Source: a virus
DNA: 20,627 nucleotides
IMG/VR virus record: IMGVR_UViG_3300013004_000227
Location: 1 to 20,627 of that record
Reading direction: 5' to 3' (one strand)
A program made the translations under genes and the position numbers. The notes under the pieces were generated by a model, which made no database searches, had not been told where the DNA came from, and worked only from the letters and a program-made list of their open reading frames with translations. Positions within the stretch are counted from its first letter, which is position 1, and the number at the start of each line of letters is the position of its first letter. Shown piece by piece: positions 4,430 to 20,002 of the stretch.

Positions 4430-5869
4430 ATGGCTATAGGAACGAAAACCGATATGATGCAAGCTAATATAGCTGCAAAGTTCGAAGGCCAAGCGATTAA
4501 AACGGCACAGACTGATGCAGTTTGGTTAATACAAAACGGTAGAAAATTAATATTTAATAGTCAACTTGCATATGATACATATGCAAAACTAAACCCATCA
4601 TTTAATGTTGCATTTACAATTGTTACTGCACAAGAGGCTGCAGCAGTGCCTGATGGAGGATTCGTTAATGATAGCGGTATACCAGTACCTAATCCTGCCG
4701 CAGCTGCGTCATCAGCAATGATGGAAGAAACGATTGAATTAAAAGCTCGATCATTAGCTAATGAATTTGTTAAGCAAATTAGAAACCAAACTCAACAAGC
4801 AGCATCTGGAAGAGTATTTACTAGATTTGAGCCAGTATCTGACATATTAGAAAATCAACAAGTTCAAGTAACTGCAGGATTATTTACTAATAATGCAGCT
4901 ACAATGTCAGCCGCGTTTACATCATCAGCTCAATCAACAACTTCTAAACAATATTATTACGAAGCTTGGAATGGAGCAGCAGCGACATCAGAAGCACAAT
5001 TTTCTGTAGCATATGGAAATAGAAAAGGCTCAGGTTCGTCAGCAGCGGGTACATTAAACGACTCTCCTTCTAGAGCAGTATATTCTCAATATAGATTGTT
5101 GCTATTGAATCCAGGAGATACTACATTTACCTTTGGTGATGGTACATCTTCAGATTCTATATACGCTATTAATTATAACAGAGCTAGATTAAAAGATAAA
5201 TTAGACCCAGGTAACTGGCAATTGACATTAGCTCAATTATCTGGTTCAGCAGTTCCAAACGCATCGCACACAGGATCAAATGTTAAGCTAGCAGATAATC
5301 CTAATTTTATTACATTAATTGACGATTCAGGAGATGTATTTAATACAGGTACTCTGGGTACCGGAAATGTTTATAATATAGTATCAGGATCATTGACAAA
5401 CGGAATTTTCAACCCGTCAGCTCCTAAATATTATGGATTGATGTATCCTAGCTTAGGTGTAGTTATTCTTAATGATGCTATACTAAATGCGTCAGCTTCA
5501 TTTAATACAGTATCAGGTTCAAATATAGCAGGTGATAATGCATGGAAGTTATTTACTTCAATTTCAGGAGCCATGGCATCAAGTGTTAATTACTCGATGC
5601 AGGCTAGGAATATTGAAACTATTACATCAACTCATTATTTTGTTCGTGTAAAAAATGGAGAATATAACTTTTCAAATAACCCAACGTTTATAACTGGATC
5701 TGTAGGAGAATTTTCTCAGCCAACGTTTATTGGAGATCCTAAAACATATTTAACAACAATTGGTATGTATAACGATAGACAAGAGCTGTTAGCAGTTGCT
5801 AAATTGTCCCAACCAATACAAAAATCATTTTCAATTGAAACCTTAATAAAGGTTAAATTGGATTTCTAA
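4430..5869 (+). CDS. Tail/baseplate structural protein, paralogue 1 of 3
   Basis: This is a 479-residue protein. Residues 30-77 (VWLIQNGRKLIFNSQLAYDT followed by AVPDGG) resemble a short beta-domain found in various phage and surface proteins, recalled from memory. Residues 105-479 align end to end with residues 129-515 of the next gene: F-TRFEP, SKQYYYEAWN, the GSGSSAAGTLNDSPSRAVYS block, DPGNWQLTLAQLSGS, YYGLMYP and a C terminus ending IKVKLDF. The C-terminal module (E-YNFSNNPT, then TTIGMYNDRQELLA, then KLSQPIQKSF) also recurs in the third protein. I infer a virion component, probably tail or baseplate, from its neighbours and its beta-rich Ser/Gly/Asn composition. It starts 32 bases after the previous stop with no Shine-Dalgarno. 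No enzymatic motif is visible. Confidence 0.75.
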   Translation: MAIGTKTDMMQANIAAKFEGQAIKTAQTDAVWLIQNGRKLIFNSQLAYDTYAKLNPSFNVAFTIVTAQEAAAVPDGGFVNDSGIPVPNPAAAASSAMMEETIELKARSLANEFVKQIRNQTQQAASGRVFTRFEPVSDILENQQVQVTAGLFTNNAATMSAAFTSSAQSTTSKQYYYEAWNGAAATSEAQFSVAYGNRKGSGSSAAGTLNDSPSRAVYSQYRLLLLNPGDTTFTFGDGTSSDSIYAINYNRARLKDKLDPGNWQLTLAQLSGSAVPNASHTGSNVKLADNPNFITLIDDSGDVFNTGTLGTGNVYNIVSGSLTNGIFNPSAPKYYGLMYPSLGVVILNDAILNASASFNTVSGSNIAGDNAWKLFTSISGAMASSVNYSMQARNIETITSTHYFVRVKNGEYNFSNNPTFITGSVGEFSQPTFIGDPKTYLTTIGMYNDRQELLAVAKLSQPIQKSFSIETLIKVKLDF

Positions 5870-5895: not shown

Positions 5896-7443
5896 ATGAT
5901 AAGGTTCATAGATAATTCATTCGATTCTGGAAATAATTACGGAGGAGGATTCAACGATAATCAATTCGGCGGAGGATTTGGCGGTGGCCGTGGCTTCAAT
6001 GACTTCGGAGGATTTAATTTTCCAAATTTCGGTGGCGGAGGCGGAGGCGGTGGCTTCGGAGGGGGTCTAGGCCTTCCTTCTTTTACTAACGGAGCAATTG
6101 GTAGTGGAGTTAGCACAGGAGCATTAATAACTCCTCCTAGGCCAATACGAACAGAGCCTGTGATAATTCAGCCTGAGCCTACACCAGCTAACCCAATACC
6201 AGCACCAGTCTTAGTTGAAGTACCGGTTAGAACACCTCCTGCAGATCCTACTCCAACGCCAATTCAAACACAAATTGATGCGGCCGCTTCGACATTAGCT
6301 AATGATATAGTTAAGCAATTAGTAGATCAAGGTAACCCGACAGTTGGAGGTAGAATATTTACTAGATTTGAACCTATTAATGATATAGTCGAAAATCAAA
6401 AAGTATTTTTAACGACTGGTTTATTTTCAAACACTACTAATGGTGTCTCTACAAATCAAGCTACAATGTCTGTATTATATACAGGATCAATTCAAAGTGC
6501 AGCGTCTAAACAATATTATTACGAGGCTTGGAATAAAAATCCTGCTACAAGTGCAGATGCTGAACCACAATTCTCAATTGCTTATGGACATAGAAGAGGG
6601 TCCGGATCTTCAGCTGCTGGTACATTAAATGATTCGCCATCAAGAGCTGTATATTCTCAATATAGATTGTTATTACTAAACCCTGAAGATACTCAATTTA
6701 CTTTTAAAGATGGTACTTCAACAGATTCGATATATGCAATTAACTTTAATCGAGCTAGAATTTTAGAAAAAGTAGATCCAGGTAACTGGCAATTAACATT
6801 AGCACAACTTTCAGGTTCGGCAGTTGCAAATAATGTACATACTGGTTCAAATGTTAAGTTAGCAGTAAACCCAAGCTTTATTTCTTTAATCGACGATTCA
6901 GGAGACACAACTCAAGACAATGTAACCACTGTAGGTAGAGTAGTTAATGTCGTTTCAGGTTCTATTACAGCAGGTATTCATAATCCAAACGCACCTCATT
7001 ATTATGGTTTAATGTATCCAGATATGGGTATTATTATTTTAGATGGCGAAAAGTTAAATACTTCAGCTTCATTTAATACCGTAACAGGTTCAAATGTTGC
7101 TGGAGATAATGCTTGGAAGTTATTAACATCAATATCTGGTGCATTCGCTACCGACCAAGTTAATTATTCTTTCCAATCGAGAAATTCGATAGTTAGAACA
7201 TCAGCTCATTATTTTGTTCGTGTAAAAAATACGGAATATAATTTCTCAAATAATCCTACATATGTAACCGGTTCAGAAGGAGAATTTTCACAACCGACAT
7301 TCTTAAACGACCCTACAGTGTATATCACTACAGTAGGTATGTATAATGACAGACAAGAATTGCTAGCAGTAGGTAAGCTATCTCAGCCAATTCAAAAGTC
7401 ATTCTCAAAAGAATCTTTAATAAAAGTTAGACTAGATTTCTAA
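5896..7443 (+). CDS. Tail/baseplate structural protein, paralogue 2 of 3, with Gly-rich and Pro-rich N terminus
   Basis: This is a 515-residue protein. Residues 16-60 are glycine-rich, with repeated GGGF and GGFGG units broken by Asn and Phe. Residues 78-125 are a Pro/Thr-rich linker (PEPTPANPIPAPV). Residues 129-515 are clearly homologous to residues 105-479 of the preceding gene, so the pair arose by tandem duplication with exchange of the N-terminal region. The underlying DNA at about 5940-6075 is unusually G-rich for this genome. The Gly/Phe stretch could be a flexible or self-associating tether and the Pro region a stiff spacer, displaying the shared body away from the particle; that is inference. 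The gene starts 26 bases after paralogue 1 without a Shine-Dalgarno and is followed by a strong hairpin at 7468-7499. Confidence 0.75.
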   Translation: MIRFIDNSFDSGNNYGGGFNDNQFGGGFGGGRGFNDFGGFNFPNFGGGGGGGGFGGGLGLPSFTNGAIGSGVSTGALITPPRPIRTEPVIIQPEPTPANPIPAPVLVEVPVRTPPADPTPTPIQTQIDAAASTLANDIVKQLVDQGNPTVGGRIFTRFEPINDIVENQKVFLTTGLFSNTTNGVSTNQATMSVLYTGSIQSAASKQYYYEAWNKNPATSADAEPQFSIAYGHRRGSGSSAAGTLNDSPSRAVYSQYRLLLLNPEDTQFTFKDGTSTDSIYAINFNRARILEKVDPGNWQLTLAQLSGSAVANNVHTGSNVKLAVNPSFISLIDDSGDTTQDNVTTVGRVVNVVSGSITAGIHNPNAPHYYGLMYPDMGIIILDGEKLNTSASFNTVTGSNVAGDNAWKLLTSISGAFATDQVNYSFQSRNSIVRTSAHYFVRVKNTEYNFSNNPTYVTGSEGEFSQPTFLNDPTVYITTVGMYNDRQELLAVGKLSQPIQKSFSKESLIKVRLDF

Positions 7444-7467
7444 AATTTTATAAAATATACCATTAAG

Positions 7468-7503
7468 TAGACTCTTTGATATTTATATTAAAGAGTCTAT
7501 TTT
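7468..7503 (+). terminator. Rho-independent-type hairpin between paralogues 2 and 3
   Basis: TAGACTCTTT at 7468-7477 pairs perfectly with AAAGAGTCTA at 7490-7499. The stem can extend inward by four more pairs (one G-T) to a four-base loop. TTTT follows at 7500-7503. This is the clearest terminator-like structure in the window. It ends only 11 bases before the ATG at 7511 and carries the candidate late promoter motif at its tip, so it may end the upstream transcript just where a new one begins. Confidence 0.6.
7479..7492 (+). promoter_or_regulatory. Candidate phage late promoter, copy 2
   Basis: ATATTTATATTAAA is the same motif as before 3720 and 13883. It ends 18 bases before the ATG at 7511 and is preceded by G, as in copy 3. 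It overlaps the apex and right arm of the hairpin at 7468-7499, so it may simply be part of that hairpin; the match to the two other copies argues for a separate role. Confidence 0.35.
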
Positions 7504-7510
7504 ACTATAT

Positions 7511-9277
7511 ATGGGAAAACCAGGAGTATTCAAAAAAATAAATGATCAAGATAAATCGATCACGCCATTCAAGGTATACAGATCTTGGAGTTATACTACT
7601 ACAGCATCTTTAGAAATTGATGGTATTAGAAGGCTAGCAGCTATTAAACCTAATCCTGCAACTTATTCTGGAAATAAAGTTACGTTAGATTCATGGCAAA
7701 CTCAAGCTGATTCAGCATCGCTATTAATTAATACTACTTTAGATTCAGAGGCTTCAATGGTTTGGTATAGCTTAAATCATTTATATTATAAAAGAGCAGG
7801 AAGGCCGTTTGAAACATTTGGATATTCAGATCCAGCAGCAATAGAAAGAACTATATTTGACGAAGCTTCTGTGATTTCAATACCACAATCAAAATTTGGA
7901 GAGTCAATTCAACCTGGGTCTGTTATTTTAAATTTCTATAATAATGTGTCTAATACATCAATGTCATTTGTAGATGACGGAAAGGGAAATTTAATTGACA
8001 CTGAATTAAGTAGTTCTATATCTAATGAATTGTTATATTTAGGATTTAACGCAATGACATATTCTCCATTTTGGGAAGCAAATCCAACAATTCAATGGTG
8101 GTATAGAACGACATACGCAACTGGATCAATTCAAAATGACACTACTATTCAGGATTTAGAAGTTACAGGTCATAATATTCTAATTGTACCTGCAGACAAA
8201 GGTTATGGAGTTATAGGTAAAACAGCTGCATACCCTTATGGAAATACAGTATTATTTAATTCAGGTTCATATATACGAATTCCAAATAACGATACTTTAA
8301 ATTTTAAAAGAAGTGAAGATTTTGCAATTGGAATGTGGGTTGGACATGATAGTACTATCGGAGCTCCTGCTACGTCTAGTATATTAACTAAACGTACTAC
8401 TGCTAAGAAAAATATAACTACTAGAAAAGGAGTAAATCAATTAGTTGATTATAATTTACCTATAAGTCAATATCCATATGATATTAGAATATTAAACGGT
8501 ACTACATTAGAATGTAGAACATCAGACGGGTCAACAACAACTTCTATAATCAGCGAATTACCTCCATATACTGTTAATCATATTTTGTTACAAAAAACGG
8601 GGTCTGCATTTGAGTTGTATGTTAATGGAACTTTACAAAGTGCAGAATTAATACCTAATGAAAACTTTCACAATGAAGCTGATATATTTATAGGATCATC
8701 TGGATTAACAAATAATGGTTATACAAGTGAAGGATTTAACGGTTCTATCGATGAAGTTATAATGTTTAGTAAAGGATTAAATCAATCTGAAATTAATCAA
8801 TTATCATCTATGAATTCTTTAAATTTAATGACTACTAATACAAATGCAGTTGGTAATGTATTTTATGAACATGGTATGGTAGTTCTTTCAGATCCTAGAA
8901 CTAAATATACTTCAGGATCATTTAGATTATTCAATGATGCTTTATATAATTATAAGACATTGGAACAACAACCAGGGTGTATACAAGATTTTTATTTTGA
9001 ATATAATTCAACGGTTACTTTATATGAACATGAATATATATGTAGAGCAAAAGAGGATGAATTTAACTTTACTTCTAATTCTACTATACGACAAAATAAT
9101 GATGAAAATTCTGAAGTTCCAAAAGATTTTGTAGCTAACCAACATTTTGCTCCTTATATAACGACAGTAGGATTATATGACAAATATGGAAGATTATTAG
9201 CAATAGGAAAATTAGGAACTCCAATTCACAAACGAGACGATGTTGACCTTAACTTAATTGTTAAGTTTGATATGTAA
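7511..9277 (+). CDS. Tail/baseplate structural protein, paralogue 3 of 3, with LamG/ConA-like domain
   Basis: This is a 588-residue protein. The N-terminal 235 residues include DKSITPFKVYRSWSYTT and SVILNFYNN...VDDGKGNLID, a style I associate with T4-like marine phage tail proteins. Residues 250-440 look like a laminin G/concanavalin A-like beta-sandwich: YIRIPNNDTLNF, FAIGMWVG, FELYVNGTLQ and GSIDEVIMFSKGLNQSEI are its typical strand signatures. Residues 448-588 match the C-terminal module of the two preceding proteins (EFNFTSNSTI, TTVGLYDKYGRLLAIGKLG-PI, ending VKFDM). The shared module is probably the particle-docking or assembly part, and the LamG-like domain a candidate glycan binder; both are inferences. 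The ATG follows the hairpin by 11 bases, with no Shine-Dalgarno. The next gene starts 13 bases after the stop. Confidence 0.75.
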   Translation: MGKPGVFKKINDQDKSITPFKVYRSWSYTTTASLEIDGIRRLAAIKPNPATYSGNKVTLDSWQTQADSASLLINTTLDSEASMVWYSLNHLYYKRAGRPFETFGYSDPAAIERTIFDEASVISIPQSKFGESIQPGSVILNFYNNVSNTSMSFVDDGKGNLIDTELSSSISNELLYLGFNAMTYSPFWEANPTIQWWYRTTYATGSIQNDTTIQDLEVTGHNILIVPADKGYGVIGKTAAYPYGNTVLFNSGSYIRIPNNDTLNFKRSEDFAIGMWVGHDSTIGAPATSSILTKRTTAKKNITTRKGVNQLVDYNLPISQYPYDIRILNGTTLECRTSDGSTTTSIISELPPYTVNHILLQKTGSAFELYVNGTLQSAELIPNENFHNEADIFIGSSGLTNNGYTSEGFNGSIDEVIMFSKGLNQSEINQLSSMNSLNLMTTNTNAVGNVFYEHGMVVLSDPRTKYTSGSFRLFNDALYNYKTLEQQPGCIQDFYFEYNSTVTLYEHEYICRAKEDEFNFTSNSTIRQNNDENSEVPKDFVANQHFAPYITTVGLYDKYGRLLAIGKLGTPIHKRDDVDLNLIVKFDM

Positions 9278-9290
9278 TTAAATAAATGTT

Positions 9291-9698
9291 ATGGCAAAAA
9301 AAAGAGCACCATACAGCGTTAAAGCTGTGGCAGCAAAATATGGATTCAGAAGTGGTTTAGAAATGACTATTGACGAATCTTTGAAATCTAGGGGTATAGA
9401 CGGAGAATATGAAAAGCATATTATTCAATATACTAAACCTGAAACACATCACAAATATCATCCCGACTTTAAATTGCCAAATGGCATTTTTGTTGAAACA
9501 AAGGGTAGGTTCTTAACTGACGATAGAAAGAAGCATTTACTTATCAAAGCACAGAATCCAAATTTAGATATTAGGTTTTTATTTCAAAATTCTAAAACTA
9601 AAATATCCAAAGCTTCAAAAACTACTTATGCCGATTGGTGCATTAAACATGGGTTTAAATTCGCAGATAAAGAAATTCCAGATGATTGGTTAATTTAA
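9291..9698 (+). CDS. Endonuclease I-type Holliday junction resolvase (T7 gp3-like)
   Basis: This is a 135-residue protein, close to the 149 residues of T7 endonuclease I. The PD-(D/E)XK-type catalytic pattern is visible: Glu24 in FRSGLE, Asp59 in YHPDFKL, Glu69 and Lys71 in VETKG. The spacing (35, 10 and 2 residues) equals that of T7 endonuclease I Glu20, Asp55, Glu65 and Lys67. The family resolves four-way junctions and debranches replicating phage DNA before packaging, working as a dimer. The N terminus is Lys/Arg-rich, fitting DNA binding. It opens the DNA-processing cassette, followed 37 bases later by the primase. No Shine-Dalgarno precedes the ATG. The family call is strong; cleavage specificity cannot be read from sequence. 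Confidence 0.88.
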   Translation: MAKKRAPYSVKAVAAKYGFRSGLEMTIDESLKSRGIDGEYEKHIIQYTKPETHHKYHPDFKLPNGIFVETKGRFLTDDRKKHLLIKAQNPNLDIRFLFQNSKTKISKASKTTYADWCIKHGFKFADKEIPDDWLI

Positions 9699-9728: not shown

Positions 9729-9735
9729 AGTCTTG

Positions 9736-10680
9736 ATGGTAAATACAAAGTTAATTCATTTAATAGATTCGGTCTTAGGAAAGGGTAAAGTTACTAATAA
9801 AGGTAACCAAGCTCACTCTTGCCCGTTTTGTCACTCTACTAGAAAAAAATTAGAAGTGCAAACGGTGACTAATGACAAAGGAGAAAATCCATGGCATTGT
9901 TGGGTTTGTAATAAGTCTGGTAAAAAGATATCTACACTGTTTAAAGCGCTAAATGTGAGTCGTGATAGGATAGCAGAATTGTATAAGCTACTTAACACCC
10001 AACCCAAATATAGCTCATCTACGAACTCCGCTTATACAGCATCTACGGTACCTCTAGACCTGCCTAAAGAGTATATTCCTTTATATAAACATTCCGAGAC
10101 AACAGAGTATAAAAATGCTATACATTATTTAAGAGCTAAAAGAAAAATAACTCTTTCTGAAATAGTAAAGTATGGTATTGGGTATTGTGAGACTGGAGAA
10201 TATGCTAAAAAGATAATTATTCCTTCTTACGATACTGAAGGTAAATTAAATTATTTTGTAGGAAGAGCTTATTATGATGTAGACTTTAAACATAAGAATC
10301 CAGACGTATCTAAAGATTGTGTTGGATTTGAATTATTTATAAATTGGGCACTTCCTTTAGTTTTAGTAGAAGGCTCATTTGATGCAATTGCAGTTAGAAG
10401 AAATGCAATACCATTATTTGGAAAGACAATATCAGAAGACTTACGTAAGAAAATTATTGAAAATAAAGTAAGTCAATTGTATATTTGTTTAGATAAAGAT
10501 GCCCAAAAACAAGCATTGCAGCATGCAGAATATTTCATGAATAATGGAGTTCAAGTTTATTTTGTAGATTTGCAAGAAAAAGATCCTGCTGAAATAGGAT
10601 TTGAAAAAATGTGTAGTTTAATAAAACAGACACCGCCTTTAACCTTTGAAAAATTCATTGAATATAAATTATTCGGATAA
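9736..10680 (+). CDS. DnaG-type DNA primase (zinc finger plus Toprim)
   Basis: This is a 314-residue protein if the ATG at 9736 is used; a TTG just upstream at 9733 would add one residue and is less likely. The zinc-binding domain has Cys29, Cys32, Cys55 and Cys58 (CPFCH and HCWVC). Residues 125-180 match the primase core (IHYLRAKRKI, IGY, KIIIPSYDTEGKLNYFVGR). The Toprim domain has Glu212 in VLVEGSFDAI, the Asp253-Lys-Asp255 pair in CLDKDA, and Asp283 in EKDPAE. It would make RNA primers for lagging-strand synthesis. At 314 residues it is much shorter than bacterial DnaG and lacks a helicase domain, so a separate phage helicase, not in this window, is expected. Its stop codon directly abuts the ATG of the nuclease-ATPase gene, suggesting coupled translation. 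Confidence 0.88.
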   Translation: MVNTKLIHLIDSVLGKGKVTNKGNQAHSCPFCHSTRKKLEVQTVTNDKGENPWHCWVCNKSGKKISTLFKALNVSRDRIAELYKLLNTQPKYSSSTNSAYTASTVPLDLPKEYIPLYKHSETTEYKNAIHYLRAKRKITLSEIVKYGIGYCETGEYAKKIIIPSYDTEGKLNYFVGRAYYDVDFKHKNPDVSKDCVGFELFINWALPLVLVEGSFDAIAVRRNAIPLFGKTISEDLRKKIIENKVSQLYICLDKDAQKQALQHAEYFMNNGVQVYFVDLQEKDPAEIGFEKMCSLIKQTPPLTFEKFIEYKLFG

Positions 10681-13600
10681 ATGTATATAGAAAATTTAGT
10701 TACTAGCATAGATAAGATAGATAAAATATATCACATAGCTGATATACACATTAGAAATCTTAAACGACATGAAGAATACACTACAGTATTTAATAGAACT
10801 GTAGACGAAATTAAAAAGACCATAGGACCAAATGATATTATCTTTTTAGGAGGAGATATTGTGCATGCAAAAACAGATATGACACCTGAACTAGTTCAGT
10901 CAGTTCAAGAGTTTCTTAAGATGTTTGCTGATTTAGGACCTACAATATTAATTACAGGAAATCACGACTGTAACTTAAATAATAAATCTAGATTAGATGC
11001 GCTTACTCCTATTGTAAATGCACTAAATCATCCAAATTTATATTATTTAAAAGAGTCAGGAGTCTATAAATTAGCTGATAAACATTTTACAGTAATGTCA
11101 GTATTTGATAAACCTAAAGATTTTATTAAAGCAGATGAATTTGAAGGCGATTATAAAATTGCACTACATCATGGAGCAGTAAATAATGCTTTAACTGATA
11201 TAGGTTTTAGATTGGTAAATGACCACGTTGATATTGATACATTTAAAGGGTATAATTTAACACTTTTAGGAGATATACACAAACCTAATCAATTCTTAAA
11301 CGAAGAAAAAACTATTGCATATCCAGGGTCACTTATTCAACAAAATTATGCAGAAGCTTTAATTCACGGAATGTTAGTTTGGGATACAAATACATCTCAA
11401 GCAGAATTTATAGAAATTGACAATGATATTTGTTATTATACTTTAGAAGTTAATGACAGTAAATACGACCCAATTCCAAATTCATTATCCGATAAATCTA
11501 TCAGATTAAGAATTAAGTCTCAAAACACAGAGCCTGCCGATTTGAAATCTATAATAGGAAGTATAAAATCTAAATTTAATATTGAAGAATATACAGTACA
11601 AAAAATTAATGATTTAACTCAAAACAAAACTAGAGTACAAAAAATTAATATTGGCGACGTAAGAGATGTTGAATATCAAAATGCGTTAATTACTAAATAT
11701 TTAGAAAATAAATTTACTTTAGAAGATGATGTTTTAGACGGAGTTCGTCATGTTAATAGAACTGTAAATTCAGGATTGCCTACATTAGAAATAAATCGTA
11801 ATGTATCTTGGATTCCTAAAAGCTTTGAGTTTGCTAATATGTTTAGTTATGGAAAAAACAACTCTATAGATTTTACTAACATGAAAGGAGTGTATGGATT
11901 ATTTGCTCCAAACGCTGCTGGAAAGTCTACATTATTAGATGCTATTACATATTGTATATTTGACAAATGTGGAAGAACTTCAAAGGCAGTTGCTGTATTA
12001 AATAATAGAGCTGCTTCATTTACATGTAAGTTCAATTTTGAATTAGATGGTAAAAATTACTTTATTGAAAAAGTAGGAACAAGAGGAAGGGGTAACCATG
12101 TTAGAGTCGATGTTAATTTTTATTCTGTAGATGATTTAGGTCAAATAACTTCATTAAACGGAAAAGAACGAAGTGAAACTAACGACCACATCAGAGGCTT
12201 ATTAGGTACTTACGAAGATTTTGTATTAACTGCATTATCAGTACAAAATAACAATTCAGGGTTTATTGATATGGCTCAGAAAGATAGAAAAGATTTGTTA
12301 GCTCAATTTTTAGATATTAATATCTTTGAAGATTTATATAGAATTGCTAACGATGACATTAAAGAAGTTGCGACTTTAGTAAAGGAATATCAGCGTCAAG
12401 ACTTTGGTTCGCAGCTAGCACAGGCTGTTAATGACATTGAGGCATATGCAAAAGAGCATAAAGATTATCAAATTGATAAAAGTGAATTAGAAGATAAAAT
12501 AGATACATTAAATCAAGAAATTTTATCTTTAACTTCTAAATTAGTTCCTGTCGATACTTCAATTGCAAATAAAGACAGGTTAGATGATTTGAAATTTCAA
12601 GCTACTTCATTTCTAACTCAATTAGAAAAAGATGCTATGAAAAAGCAATCTGAATTAAGTGAGTGTAAAGAGTCATTAAGTGAGTTGCGAGAAAGTATAA
12701 AGTTGTTTAATATCTCTAAAATTCAAGCTCGAATTGATGTTTTAGATGGATTACATAACACAGAAAAAAATCTTCATGGAAATGTAGAAAAACTTAAGGC
12801 TGAAGTTAGCTATAAGTTAGACAAAATGAAGAAACTTGACGATTTGAAATATGATGAAAATTGTTCGTTTTGTATGGATAATGTTTTTGTTAAAGATGCA
12901 ATTGCTACGAAAGCCTCAATTGAAGAAGATAAAAAACATGCTCAAGCTATTATAAATGATTTGCAAGGTATTAAAGATAAAATAGCTCAGCTAAAACCTT
13001 CTATACAAGAAAAAGAAGATTATAATAAATTAAACCAAGATATTCATAAAAAGGAATCGTTAAAATCGTCAATTGAATCTGAGTTACATCAAATTGAATC
13101 TAAACATCATCAAGGAGTTTCTAGATTAAGTGAAGTTGAGACTAAAATTGCTGAATATTTTAAACAAGAGGCAGTTATCAAAGAAAACATGACTATAAAT
13201 GGTCAGATAGATTCTTTAAACAAAAAAGTATCTGATTTAAAAGATGAATTAAGTATACTTAATGATGATATTTTAACGTGTCATTCAAAATTATTACTGT
13301 CTGAAAAATTAAAAGAGAAAGCTGAAGAGTCTATTGCTAAATTAAAAGACTTAGCGCAACAGTATAAATTTTATCAATACTATTTAGAGGCTGTTAATAG
13401 AGACGGAATACCTTATGATTTAATTACTTCAGCAGTTCCATACATCGAGCAAGAAATAAATAATATTTTAAGTCAATTAGTTGAATTTAGTTTGATGCTT
13501 GAAATGGATGGTAAAAATATTAATTGTTATATTGTATATGATGAAGACAACTTCTGGCCAATTGAATTAACTTCTGGAATGGAAAAGTTTGTTTCTTCAT

Positions 13601-13845
13601 TAGCAATTAGAACTGCATTGATAAATGTATCTTCGTTACCTAGACCAAATTTCCTAGCTATTGATGAAGGATTCGGAGTTTTAGATTCTGATAATTTAAA
13701 CTCAATGTTCAATTTATTCGATTATTTAAAAACTCAATTCTCATTTATGTTAGTAATATCACATATTGATTCTATGAGAGATGTAGTAGACAAATTAATT
13801 GAAATTACTAAAACAAACGGAAGCTCAAAAATATCTTACAATTAA
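10681..13845 (+). CDS. Fused Mre11/SbcD-Rad50/SbcC (gp47-gp46-like) recombination nuclease-ATPase
   Basis: This is a 1054-residue single chain. Residues 1-250 are a metallophosphatase nuclease: Asp21/His23 (ADIHI), Asp59 (GGDI), Asn94-His95 (TGNHD), His163-His164 (ALHHG) and Asp198/His200 (LGDIHKPNQF). From about 375 onwards it is an SMC/Rad50-type ATPase: Walker A 406-417 (GLFAPNAAGKST), first coiled-coil arm about 565-725, zinc hook Cys728/Cys731 (NCSFC), second arm about 735-905, signature motif 964-968 (TSGME), Walker B 991-997 (FLAIDEG) and the His switch 1027-1028 (ISH). In T4, gp47 and gp46 are separate subunits that resect DNA ends for recombination-dependent replication; here their combined length is in one frame without a stop or start between. 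It begins directly after the primase stop. Families are certain; whether the chain is processed is unknown. Confidence 0.93.
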   Translation: MYIENLVTSIDKIDKIYHIADIHIRNLKRHEEYTTVFNRTVDEIKKTIGPNDIIFLGGDIVHAKTDMTPELVQSVQEFLKMFADLGPTILITGNHDCNLNNKSRLDALTPIVNALNHPNLYYLKESGVYKLADKHFTVMSVFDKPKDFIKADEFEGDYKIALHHGAVNNALTDIGFRLVNDHVDIDTFKGYNLTLLGDIHKPNQFLNEEKTIAYPGSLIQQNYAEALIHGMLVWDTNTSQAEFIEIDNDICYYTLEVNDSKYDPIPNSLSDKSIRLRIKSQNTEPADLKSIIGSIKSKFNIEEYTVQKINDLTQNKTRVQKINIGDVRDVEYQNALITKYLENKFTLEDDVLDGVRHVNRTVNSGLPTLEINRNVSWIPKSFEFANMFSYGKNNSIDFTNMKGVYGLFAPNAAGKSTLLDAITYCIFDKCGRTSKAVAVLNNRAASFTCKFNFELDGKNYFIEKVGTRGRGNHVRVDVNFYSVDDLGQITSLNGKERSETNDHIRGLLGTYEDFVLTALSVQNNNSGFIDMAQKDRKDLLAQFLDINIFEDLYRIANDDIKEVATLVKEYQRQDFGSQLAQAVNDIEAYAKEHKDYQIDKSELEDKIDTLNQEILSLTSKLVPVDTSIANKDRLDDLKFQATSFLTQLEKDAMKKQSELSECKESLSELRESIKLFNISKIQARIDVLDGLHNTEKNLHGNVEKLKAEVSYKLDKMKKLDDLKYDENCSFCMDNVFVKDAIATKASIEEDKKHAQAIINDLQGIKDKIAQLKPSIQEKEDYNKLNQDIHKKESLKSSIESELHQIESKHHQGVSRLSEVETKIAEYFKQEAVIKENMTINGQIDSLNKKVSDLKDELSILNDDILTCHSKLLLSEKLKEKAEESIAKLKDLAQQYKFYQYYLEAVNRDGIPYDLITSAVPYIEQEINNILSQLVEFSLMLEMDGKNINCYIVYDEDNFWPIELTSGMEKFVSSLAIRTALINVSSLPRPNFLAIDEGFGVLDSDNLNSMFNLFDYLKTQFSFMLVISHIDSMRDVVDKLIEITKTNGSSKISYN

Positions 13846-13882: not shown

Positions 13883-16800
13883 ATGGCTAAAAACGAAGTT
13901 ATATATCAAGGCCTTAGCGACCTTAATGTATTAATAGACGATACAACAGCAAATTCTCCTGACTACTTTAGAATAACTAATTTACCAGGAGAATTTACTG
14001 CGGGTATTAATATTTTTAAATTTAAAGGAAATGCATCTTTATTTCCTGAAAATTCTCCGTTATATATTGAAGTTTTAGATGCAAATGGACTTCCAGTTTA
14101 TTATGAAGTTGGATTAGATTTAGAGTCTCAAGAGCAATCTGCTATTATCTCAGTTTACATTAATGAAGATACAGTTCCTGGTAACGGGTCTATTACAATT
14201 TGCGGTCAAGCAAATCAATCTTCTGAAGGTCAAATATTAGATGCCTCTGAAATCAACGTAAGATGGTCAACGCCAGTTTACATTGACATTTCAAAACGAA
14301 ATGTAGACGAAATAATATTTGACGAATTGCCTATAGTTACTATTACTGCAACAACAGGTTCATATACTAATTTAGGATACCCAAGTAATACTAGAACGGA
14401 AACAGACACTTGGAGCAATGTTTCATATATTTATAGAAACGGAGAAGCGACTTTATATACAAGTTCATTATCATTCCCTGCATTTCCATCTACTGCTACT
14501 AATACTAGATTAACAATATATTACGGAGATATTGCAGATTCTAATCAACGAACTGATGAAGAAATTTATACAACTGCGGAGTTCACTTCAAGTATATTAA
14601 CATATTCAGGAAGTGGAATAGCATATTTAGCTGATCCGATTATATTTTCAGTAAATAATAGTTCAGAGCAACATATCGTACAATATGGAGTAATTAATAC
14701 CATGGATGTTGTATATGAACAATCAGCTTCGCTAGCTTCTCAGTCTACCGAAAACACACATAACGTAGCAGTTGTTCAATTTTCAGGATTACAGCCTCAG
14801 GCAGGAGAAATTGCTAAAATTAGATCTTACTATAAATCTGCAGGTGTACAAGAATACATTTTTTCTAATGAAACGGATATATCTGATTTAGCAGATGAAT
14901 TTGGATTTACTGCAAATGTAGTAACTGCTTCTTTTGCATTACCAACTATACATAGAAATGATAGGTTTGACTTTAAATTTGAATTTATTAATTCATCTGG
15001 TTATATTTCAAAACAAGTACTTGAATATAGAGATGTTTTATTTCAAGGAGGAAATACATACATAGGAGGTGATGATAATTTAATTACTGGCTCACTTTAC
15101 GTTGCAGGTGCGACAGGTACGGGAGTACATATTTCAGGAAAAAACAGTGCTGCGATGATTCGCAGTATAGGATATGAAGGATTTCAAAAAGCTAGTGCAC
15201 CAGGCGGAAAAGGAGGATTTGTAATTTACTCAGGTTCTGTTCAGCCATTATTAAATGCGTCTGAGCAATATACCGGAGTAGGTCTTGAATTATTTGCAAA
15301 CACATCATCATATTTCAAATATACAACTTCTGGTTCAGGTTTATTAGATGTAAGGACAGATCAATTCTTTTTAGGTAGTACAAGTCAGTTTATATCTGGA
15401 GCAAATGGTAATATTGAAATATCATCTTCGAATTTTCATTTGAATGCCAATGGCGAAGTCAGTCTGACAGGTAATATTAATATTTCATCTGGTACTGGAT
15501 TTGCCACACCTGCATTTGTTACATCGTCAATTGGTACAGCAACTAGCTCATTATCATCATCAATTAATTCGACAATATCATCAGTGTCATCGTCGCTGAA
15601 CTCATCAGTTTCATCCGTATCGTCATCATTTAATTCAACGATATCGACAGTATCGTCGTCATTAAATTCATCGATATCATCAGTATCATCATCAATATCA
15701 TCATCAGTATCGTCAGTTTCGTCATCGTTAACTTCAACAATAACCTCAGTATCGTCGTCATTAAATTCATCGATATCGTCAGTGTCATCATCGATATCAT
15801 CATCAGTGTCGTCAGTGTCGGCATCACTGAACTCGTCAATATTGTCAGTTTCATCTTCAATATCATCGTCAGTATCATCAGTTTCATCATCATTAACTTC
15901 GACAATAACCTCAGTATCATCATCACTGAATTCATCGATATCATCATCGGTATCTTCAGTATCATCATCACTGACTTCGACAATATCGACAGTTTCATCA
16001 TCGCTTAATTCATCGATATCATCATCGGTTTCATCGGTTTCGTCGTCACTGACTTCGACAATATCTTCAGTATCATCATCACTGACTTCAACGATAATCT
16101 CAGTGTCATCATCACTGAATTCATCGATATTAGCTGCTTCGTCATCTGCTGCGGCTGCTTCATCATCAGCAGCAATTGCAATTGATAGAATTGTAACAGA
16201 TTCTAATAATTTAATAGTTAAACCAAACAATACACCAAACGCTGGTGCAGGACTATATTTATCACAAAATTATTTAGGATATTATTCAGGTAGTGCATGG
16301 AATGCGTATATAAGTTCATCTGGTGAATTTTTATTTAAAAAGGATAATGACAATCAAATGTCATTTGGTAACGACGCATTTATATTAAAAATTTCAGATA
16401 CTGCTACAATATCAGGTTCGAATATTAATTTACTAACACCTAATTTCTTTTTAGGTAGTAACGCTCAATACATATCAGGTTCCGGCGGTAATATTGAAAT
16501 ATCATCTTCAAATTTCCATTTAAGTCCTACCGGAGATGTTGAAATGGCAGGTGATGTTAATGCAGTAAATGGAGTTTTTGAAAATGTATCGATTACTGGA
16601 AATGTTATAACAGGTTCAGGAACTGCTTTTTCAAAATTTACAGGAAGCAACTCATTTTTATTAGAATCTTGGTTTACTTCTTCGTTTGTAAGAAACCGAG
16701 CTTCAGGAGGTTCTGTCGCAGCATTAGCAACTAAATTTGCAACAGGCAATACATTTAATTATGGAATTTTTGGATGGACAGCATCATTAAGTTTACAAAA

Positions 16801-18508: not shown

Positions 18509-19123
18509 ATGAGAGAATATAAAGATTTAACTGAAATATTTCCAAGTAATTTTAAATTTGGAAATTACGTAATTCGAAATATATTTGCGGACAATATTAT
18601 AGATAGTAGCGTTGCAGCATTTTATAACTGTAGCTCTGATTTAGAAAAAGACCATACAATATTTCTATCGACAAAAATAAATGATACTGTTCAATGTGTA
18701 ATGTCTAACAATTTATTTGAAAAGTTAACAAATCAAAATTTTATTGACACTGCGAGAGGAGATGTAATTGTTTTTGGGTTAGGCTTAGGATTGATTTTAT
18801 TTCCATTATTAGAAGATGACGAAATTAGTAGCATTACTGTAATTGATAACAGTATAGATATTATCGACAATATAGGACCGATAATTAAAAATTACGATGT
18901 TAATAATAAATTAACAATTATTCAAGGAGATGTATTTACACATTATCAGCAATTAAACGAAATGAAATTTGATGTAATGTATTTCGATTATTGGAATATT
19001 GTAGACAGCACAATACAAACTGATATGGAAATGCTAAAAGAATTGTATAAAAATAATATTAAAGAAACAGGTCAAATCATGTATTGGTGTGAAGATCTTT
19101 TTACTAACGGAATAATTAATTAA
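18509..19123 (+). CDS. Rossmann-fold, SAM-methyltransferase/spermidine synthase-like protein
   Basis: This is a 204-residue protein. Residues 86-95 (VIVFGLGLGL) form a glycine-rich loop after a beta strand, as in motif I of class I methyltransferases. Asp113 in TVIDNS would contact the SAM ribose. Gly140-Asp141 (IIQGDVF) fits the next motif, and 154-163 (FDVMYFDYWN) the motif at the active-site strand. The order and spacing suit a small spermidine synthase-like or SAM-dependent methyltransferase fold. The N-terminal 80 residues are beta-rich and contain no recognised domain. The substrate cannot be read from the sequence. It starts three bases after the fibre stop and ends six bases before the next fibre gene, so it is co-transcribed with them; a role in modifying a fibre protein, a host surface molecule or a small metabolite is possible but unproven. 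Confidence 0.6.
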   Translation: MREYKDLTEIFPSNFKFGNYVIRNIFADNIIDSSVAAFYNCSSDLEKDHTIFLSTKINDTVQCVMSNNLFEKLTNQNFIDTARGDVIVFGLGLGLILFPLLEDDEISSITVIDNSIDIIDNIGPIIKNYDVNNKLTIIQGDVFTHYQQLNEMKFDVMYFDYWNIVDSTIQTDMEMLKELYKNNIKETGQIMYWCEDLFTNGIIN

Positions 19124-19129
19124 TAAAAT

Positions 19130-20002
19130 ATGCCAGTATATTCATATAAATTCTCAGGAAGAGAAGTTTTAGGTGCTAGTTCCGGAAGTGTAATTATTCC
19201 AGGTACGCTACGAGTTTCAGGTAGTACCGCCGCGGCAAGTGTAGGATTTGTAAATATAACAGGAACTCCTAGTTCAGGCCCAACCTTAGGATCAGGAACA
19301 GTAGGGTCTCAAGCTTTACTAGCATCAAACGGTTTGTATGGTATGTACTCTGGCGTTTCAAATAGTGGAGATGTTTGGCATCAAGTTCAAAGAAATGATG
19401 CTAATGGTACACCATATGGTATACTACTAAACCCAAACGGAGGAGGTGTAGCAATAGGAAAAGGAACAACAAGCCCAGCACATGTATTAGATGTAACTGG
19501 AACTGGTAATGCAACTTCTGATTTTAGAGCACCAATATTCTATGATTCAGATTCAACAGCATATTATGTAAATCCAGCATCTACGTCTAGATTAAATACA
19601 TTAGAAACTGTAGGTAGAGTAGGTATTAATCAAACAAGCCCATCATATCCGTTACATGTAAATGCAAATGTAAGTGGAACTTCAATTTATGCATCTGCAG
19701 ATATCGTTGCCTATTCAGATGTATCTGTAAAAGAAAATATAAGATCGATTGAAAATGTTATAGAAAGAATACTGCAATCAAGAGGTGTATTATACGACCG
19801 TATAGATAGCGGTGAAAAAGATAATATAGGATTTATAGCTCAAGAATTAGAAGTTACATTCCCTGAATTAGTCGTAACTAATGAAGATGGAACAAAAGCT
19901 GTAAAATACCAAAATACTGTAGCAGTTCTTTTTGAAGCGATAAAAGCGCAACAAAAACAAATTGACGAATTAAAACAAATTGTTGATGGCATTAACAGGT
20001 AG
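19130..20002 (+). CDS. Tail fibre/spike with C-terminal S74 intramolecular chaperone
   Basis: This is a 290-residue protein. Residues 1-195 are Gly/Ser/Val-rich and beta-rich, with phage fibre signatures: GTLRVSG, GVAIGKGTTSP, then FYDSDSTAYYVNPASTSRLN at 137-156 and VGINQTSPSYPLHV. Residues 196-290 are a peptidase S74 domain: Ser196-Asp197 and Lys201 (YSDVSVKENI), GFIAQELE-x-x-FPELV at 234-247, VKYQNTVAVLFEAIKAQ, and a short C-terminal helix. In this family the domain helps the trimer fold and then cleaves itself off using a Ser-Lys pair, here predicted between Tyr195 and Ser196. The gene starts six bases after the methyltransferase-like gene, and its last 17 bases overlap the next gene. It is probably a short fibre or a distal attachment to the long one. 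Confidence 0.85.
   Translation: MPVYSYKFSGREVLGASSGSVIIPGTLRVSGSTAAASVGFVNITGTPSSGPTLGSGTVGSQALLASNGLYGMYSGVSNSGDVWHQVQRNDANGTPYGILLNPNGGGVAIGKGTTSPAHVLDVTGTGNATSDFRAPIFYDSDSTAYYVNPASTSRLNTLETVGRVGINQTSPSYPLHVNANVSGTSIYASADIVAYSDVSVKENIRSIENVIERILQSRGVLYDRIDSGEKDNIGFIAQELEVTFPELVVTNEDGTKAVKYQNTVAVLFEAIKAQQKQIDELKQIVDGINR

Follow-up and report, generated by a model that had tools for sequence, protein, structure and literature searches.

The gene at positions 10681 to 13845 of the window, the 20,627-base stretch of phage DNA analysed here, very probably encodes a single-chain Mre11–Rad50 (SbcD–SbcC) complex of the R555-type 'MR fusion' kind, which would pair into a 2:2 assembly and function in end resection in the phage. 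We infer its activity, polarity, dimer geometry, docking in cis and role in replication. The window is its IMG/VR record as a whole, and the wider context was drawn from relatives. The frame opens with an ATG at 10681, closes with a stop codon at 13843–13845 and has zero internal stops over 1054 amino acids. Pfam places Metallophos at residues 15–201 (E 4e-10) and AAA_23 at residues 386–620 (E 7e-16), the C-terminus matches SMC_N and SbcC_Walker_B (both below the Pfam curated cut-off), and the SbcC-like family PHROG_77 aligns to residues 278–1053 (E 1e-53). Together with the fold matches and cysteines Cys728 and Cys731 described below, the frame and the Pfam domains bear out the initial annotation of a nuclease and an ATPase in one uninterrupted frame with an intact zinc hook. 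The features of the gene and its immediate neighbours are:

9291..9698, plus strand: T7-type endonuclease I, of the Holliday-junction resolvase family (Phage_endo_I, E 2e-57).
9733..10680, plus strand: DnaG-like primase, its stop codon directly before the fusion's ATG (phrog_47, Toprim_2).
10681..13845, plus strand: complete gene for a single-chain Mre11–Rad50 fusion, 1054 amino acids plus stop (Pfam, PHROG, one frame kept in relatives, dN/dS 0.08–0.14).
10720..11430, plus strand: Mre11/SbcD-like calcineurin-type nuclease domain, residues 14–250 (Metallophos, conservation, fold match to 7dog); metal-site residues D21, H23, D59, N94, H95, H164, D198 and H200.
11431..11607, plus strand: Mre11 capping domain, residues 251–309 (secondary structure of the model; 7dog nuclease and capping aligned over model residues 14–309).
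11668..11772, plus strand: helix-loop-helix, residues 330–364, at the position of the Mre11 Rad50-binding domain (helices in the model, alignment near the T4 gp47 C-terminus), a putative docking element.
11773..11808, plus strand: tether, residues 365–376, the sole segment added by the fusion (length constancy; the Rad50 fold starts at 377).
11809..12360, plus strand: Rad50/SbcC N-lobe, residues 377–560, with Walker A at 406–416 (nucleotides 11896–11928) and Q-loop Q522 (AAA_23, conservation, match to 7yzo).
12361..13395, plus strand: coiled coil, residues 561–905, with the zinc hook C728-x-x-C731 at nucleotides 12862–12873 (long helices in the model; hook cysteines in 95 of 95 sequences).
13396..13842, plus strand: Rad50/SbcC C-lobe, residues 906–1054, with signature SGME (965–968), Walker B DE (995–996), D-loop D1002 and H1028 (conservation; phmmer match to E. 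coli SbcC 962–1048).

Motif conservation was scored over an alignment of 95 sequences. The nuclease half conserves D21, D59, N94, H95, H164 and H200, and in the ATPase half conservation is complete or nearly so for Walker A, Q-loop, signature, Walker B, D-loop and H-switch. The claim of the initial annotation that all catalytic motifs are present is a little overstated. Motif V is GDIH (G-D198-I-H200) instead of GHxH, with D198 in 95/95; motif II is GDxxH instead of GDxxD, with H62 in 93/95; and Gln replaces His23 of motif I in 12/95 homologues. This Gln subgroup, which has DIQI in motif I and keeps all other metal-site residues, consists of L060, L067, L070, L072, L074, L075, L083, L090, L094, L097, L099 and L101.

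These changes at the metal site (His to Asp at 198, Asp to His at 62 and, in some relatives, Gln23) could indicate an unconventional nuclease half, inactive or with a changed substrate, in a protein whose main role would be to tether or clamp DNA ends. The near-universal presence of D198 and H62, and the Gln of the subgroup, favour this reading, which we nevertheless consider unlikely. The remaining metal-site positions are all conserved, Asp should itself be able to bind metal, and the departures are also seen in split SbcD-like proteins: those of Providencia phage PSTCR5 and Vibrio phage D51 have GDxH, and those of Herelleviridae, Twort and A511 among them, have GDxxH. Because GDxxH and GDxH occur in split proteins too, neither alone marks a fusion. 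The ATPase signature, read here as SGME, has SGGE as its textbook form; SGME is common to the window protein and the distant fused proteins of phage pT24 and a 735-kb phage.

Two AlphaFold2 models of the fusion, the second from 60 sequences (mean pLDDT 84, pTM 0.46), concur on the middle of the chain: strands at residues 250–258 and 273–281, a helix at 285–298, a strand at 300–309, a low-confidence loop, and helices at 330–344 and 349–364. By VIA-align, residues 14–309 correspond to the nuclease and capping domains of S. aureus SbcD (7dog, Z 24.6, rmsd 3.7, 274 residues) and residues 377–1054 to the E. coli SbcC head (7yzo, Z 31.3, rmsd 3.2, 349 residues), with residue 377 of the fusion standing opposite SbcC residue 1. 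Among viral proteins, the best fold matches are to Tenacibaculum phage proteins and to full-length proteins of giant viruses of the Mimivirus kind, the latter at 20–26% identity across the whole chain. The VIA-align rows are mostly Rad50/SMC heads, and among them the helix-loop-helix by itself had no solved Rad50-binding domain as a counterpart. The position of the helix-loop-helix and its alignment with the T4 gp47 C-terminus suggest, at the level of the model, that residues 330–364 correspond to the Rad50-binding helix-loop-helix of Mre11.

The tether between the helix-loop-helix and the start of Rad50 is exactly 12 residues long in 93 of the 95 homologues, inside the 9–12 residues calculated for a linker that fits the T. 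maritima complex (PMC3175470). The order of the fusion and the length of its tether fit canonical docking, itself a model-level proposal. A clade-wide fusion with a near-invariant 12-residue tether could also be taken as a sign of a distinct mechanism, for example forced trans docking (a domain swap) or cutting of the chain after assembly, with assembly or nuclease regulation unlike that of any two-subunit MR complex. We regard this as improbable, and nothing found points to a new mechanism.

Still less probable is the proposal of the initial annotation that residues 250–375 form a new linker, one that replaces the docking contact between nuclease and ATPase. Conservation is lower here than in the flanking domains (mean entropy about 2.0 versus 1.2–1.5), but residues 251–309 align to the capping domain of solved SbcD, the two helices that follow lie where Mre11 has its Rad50-binding helix-loop-helix, and Rad50 begins at 377. 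The region thus consists of a normal capping domain and helix-loop-helix, to which just the tether has been added.

With the whole protein as query, an initial IMG/VR search recovered 15 contigs, and from an alignment-based search the best 80 of at least 584 relatives were kept; at that stage 97 loci (a few contigs counted twice) had the nuclease and both ATPase lobes in one frame. The search was repeated with the nuclease half alone because a full-protein ranking favours fused copies, and again the best 80 loci were kept. Of these, 73 are fused, 7 end at a contig edge and none is split. Seventy-seven were new (70 fused, 7 cut by the contig end, none split), and the three already known, L035, L041 and L054, are also fused. 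Fusion is therefore the normal state among the best 80 loci by nuclease half, and it is the rule in a large group of aquatic phages known from uncultured material. By the yardstick of the initial annotation itself, a search showing fusion to be the usual state in a large phage group, this count speaks against novelty, as does the description of such fusions in 2011 (PMC3175470).

The single frame is retained in independent contigs at 40–94% identity to the window protein. Four pairwise comparisons gave dN/dS of 0.08–0.14 for the whole protein and 0.07–0.17 for residues 251–375, values that point to purifying selection across the nuclease–ATPase junction. That adjacent SbcD and SbcC genes were joined by a missed stop or an assembly frameshift, a concern raised in the initial annotation, is an explanation we dismiss: accidental joins exist in databases, and a Listeria phage LMTA-57 entry appears to be one, but the intact independent copies and the low dN/dS over the junction exclude it here. 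The LMTA-57 entry (KJ591605.1, 59521–62550), listed in the fold library as a 'recombination exonuclease' of 1009 aa, looks like the join of two genes. A511 has the two apart, annotated as a pair, and the LMTA-57 DNA is 1 base shorter than that pair, perhaps through a sequencing error or a recent mutation. Loci L007 and L016, which resemble a broken copy, are two stretches of one contig flanking a 10-base interval, probably a scaffold gap.

A scan of GTDB genome contigs gave one weak match and a single relative that is fused and full-length; the latter lies on a short contig, probably of phage origin and mis-binned, in a Nitrosopelagicus MAG; a search of the plasmid collection found no full-length relative. 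Among deposited phages, fused relatives occur in Mel-JY01, LR756508 (interrupted), LR756501/LR756503 and Tenacibaculum phages. The other deposited-phage records listed match just one of the halves, and all that were inspected proved to be split pairs. A tree was built from 16 fused and 9 split proteins, with split pairs concatenated and the two pieces of L019 joined. The two sets separate in it with 100/100 support, albeit with long-branch warnings and a small sample; the tree leaves room for several fusion events that may have occurred elsewhere.

The interrupted copy, L019 (LR756508.1, a 484-kb metagenomic phage), carries at 6612–7670 a 305-aa ORF just past the GDIHK motif of the fusion gene. 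This ORF contains Cys-rich motifs, weakly matches a TnsA-like nuclease and probably encodes a homing-type endonuclease. Rfam gave nothing significant in the interrupted L019 copy or in the window; as no known intron RNA family was found in L019, its fusion protein may be made as two pieces.

The window gene is a well-conserved fusion, ordinary for its group. A search of the open literature on Mre11, Rad50, SbcC and gp46/gp47 fusions returned PMC3175470 as the sole paper directly on the subject. There, Yoshida, Claverie and Ogata described Mimivirus R555 as an Mre11/Rad50 fusion in 2011 and found twelve further fusions, one of them in Bacillus phage 0305phi8-36 (PMC3175470). They reported R555-like scaffolds as abundant in aquatic metagenomes, enriched in viral fractions and associated with phage primases and T7-like endonucleases, and themselves pointed out that only a few long environmental sequences bore out the fusion as such (PMC3175470). 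In R555, His replaces the third Asp of motif II, and Asp replaces the residue equivalent to P. furiosus His206 (PMC3175470).

The window protein resembles the R555 type in its uninterrupted chain of N-terminal Mre11 and C-terminal Rad50, in both motif departures (H62 in motif II and D198 in motif V, compared with the text of PMC3175470), in a capping segment plus a segment of helix-loop-helix length followed by a short tether of the predicted length, and in its primase and T7-type endonuclease neighbours. R555 differs in having 1351 amino acids and cell-length coiled coils and in belonging to a giant virus of amoebae, whereas the window protein has 1054 and comes from a tailed phage. The kinship with R555 rests on the shared motif changes, the fold search and the synteny reported in PMC3175470, as opposed to the R555 sequence itself.

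Closer at hand is WWT39521.1 of Microcystis phage Mel-JY01, a fused protein with 41% identity over 99% of the length that also lies downstream of a DnaG-like primase; a small ORF separates the two genes, and the protein is annotated as 'AAA domain containing protein' with the nuclease half unmentioned. The 'metallo-phosphoesterase / DNA repair exonuclease' (phrog_35725) of Tenacibaculum phages pT24 and PTm1 is likewise fused, with GDIH and SGME, but is very divergent, at 1310 aa, with DxQ in motif I and no primase annotated within the fetched flanks. T4 gp47/gp46 and the SbcD/SbcC-like pairs of Herelleviridae share the domain content, the folds and a presumed role in DNA-end processing, but are encoded by two genes. 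Separate subunits, the trait of T4 gp46/gp47 and bacterial SbcC/SbcD, contrast with the single frame in the window, and T4 gp47 has canonical GDxxD and GHxH where the window nuclease departs from motif V with GDIH.

Of the 161 fused loci whose upstream DNA is long enough, 158 have a primase next to the fusion; endonuclease I occurs no more than 2.6 kb upstream in 105 fused loci. Mel-JY01, a complete relative, and six large contigs each gave a single AAA_23 (Rad50-type) protein, the fusion; the 735-kb phage apart, no second Rad50-type ATPase turned up in the large relatives that were searched. RecA-family genes are present in 6/8 large relatives. In Flavobacterium phage immuto, the surroundings of the primase were examined for an MR pair, but the adjoining 'exonuclease' is PD-(D/E)XK/Cas4-like and has no bearing on the fusion.

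Several observations concern other genes. Large proteins that start like nucleotidyltransferases are encoded outside the window, downstream of the fusion or a related primase, at L104 14686–17409 (phage immuto, annotated as NadR), L008 6747–9383 and L009 12821–15013; the start reads IYPGRFQPFGKHH in L008 and L009. Within the window, the neighbouring structural proteins at 4430–5869 and 5896–7443 are tandem paralogues (67% identity over 407 residues). The structural gene of 1540 aa contains imperfect 33/66/78/99-base repeats at 15548–16146; their product is a Ser/Val-rich repeat, SVSSSLNSSI, and the long minus-strand frames there are by-products. A small protein at 18509–19123, among tail genes, matches the phage methyltransferase family phrog_15480, and 19130–20002 encodes a tail-fibre-like protein with an S74 intramolecular chaperone domain.

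We propose that the chain, ordered as nuclease, capping domain, helix-loop-helix, 12-residue tether, Rad50 N-lobe, coiled coil with zinc hook and Rad50 C-lobe, would pair with a second chain into an ordinary 2:2 assembly joined through nuclease domains, ATP-bound heads and zinc hook, each helix-loop-helix docking in cis on the base of the coiled coil. A 1:1 ratio follows from covalent fusion, as the initial annotation claimed in saying that it fixes stoichiometry, but the two-gene complex is already 2:2. DNA ends would be resected to 3' single strands for a RecA/UvsX-type recombinase, much as T4 gp46/gp47 is held to resect ends for UvsX. With the adjoining primase and endonuclease I, the fusion could act in recombination-dependent replication and the resolution of branched DNA. 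Most likely it would be the phage's only MR complex, feeding RecA/UvsX-dependent recombination and replication.

Nuclease–ATPase fusions have been known since 2011, when their place in aquatic phages could only be suggested from short sequences; there the arrangement is now confirmed on many long phage contigs. Annotations such as 'AAA domain' or 'metallo-phosphoesterase' overlook half of such proteins. A one-gene MR complex of 1054 residues would be convenient for single-molecule and structural studies. Across a large group of phages from aquatic habitats, Mre11–Rad50 is one protein beside a primase and often endonuclease I.
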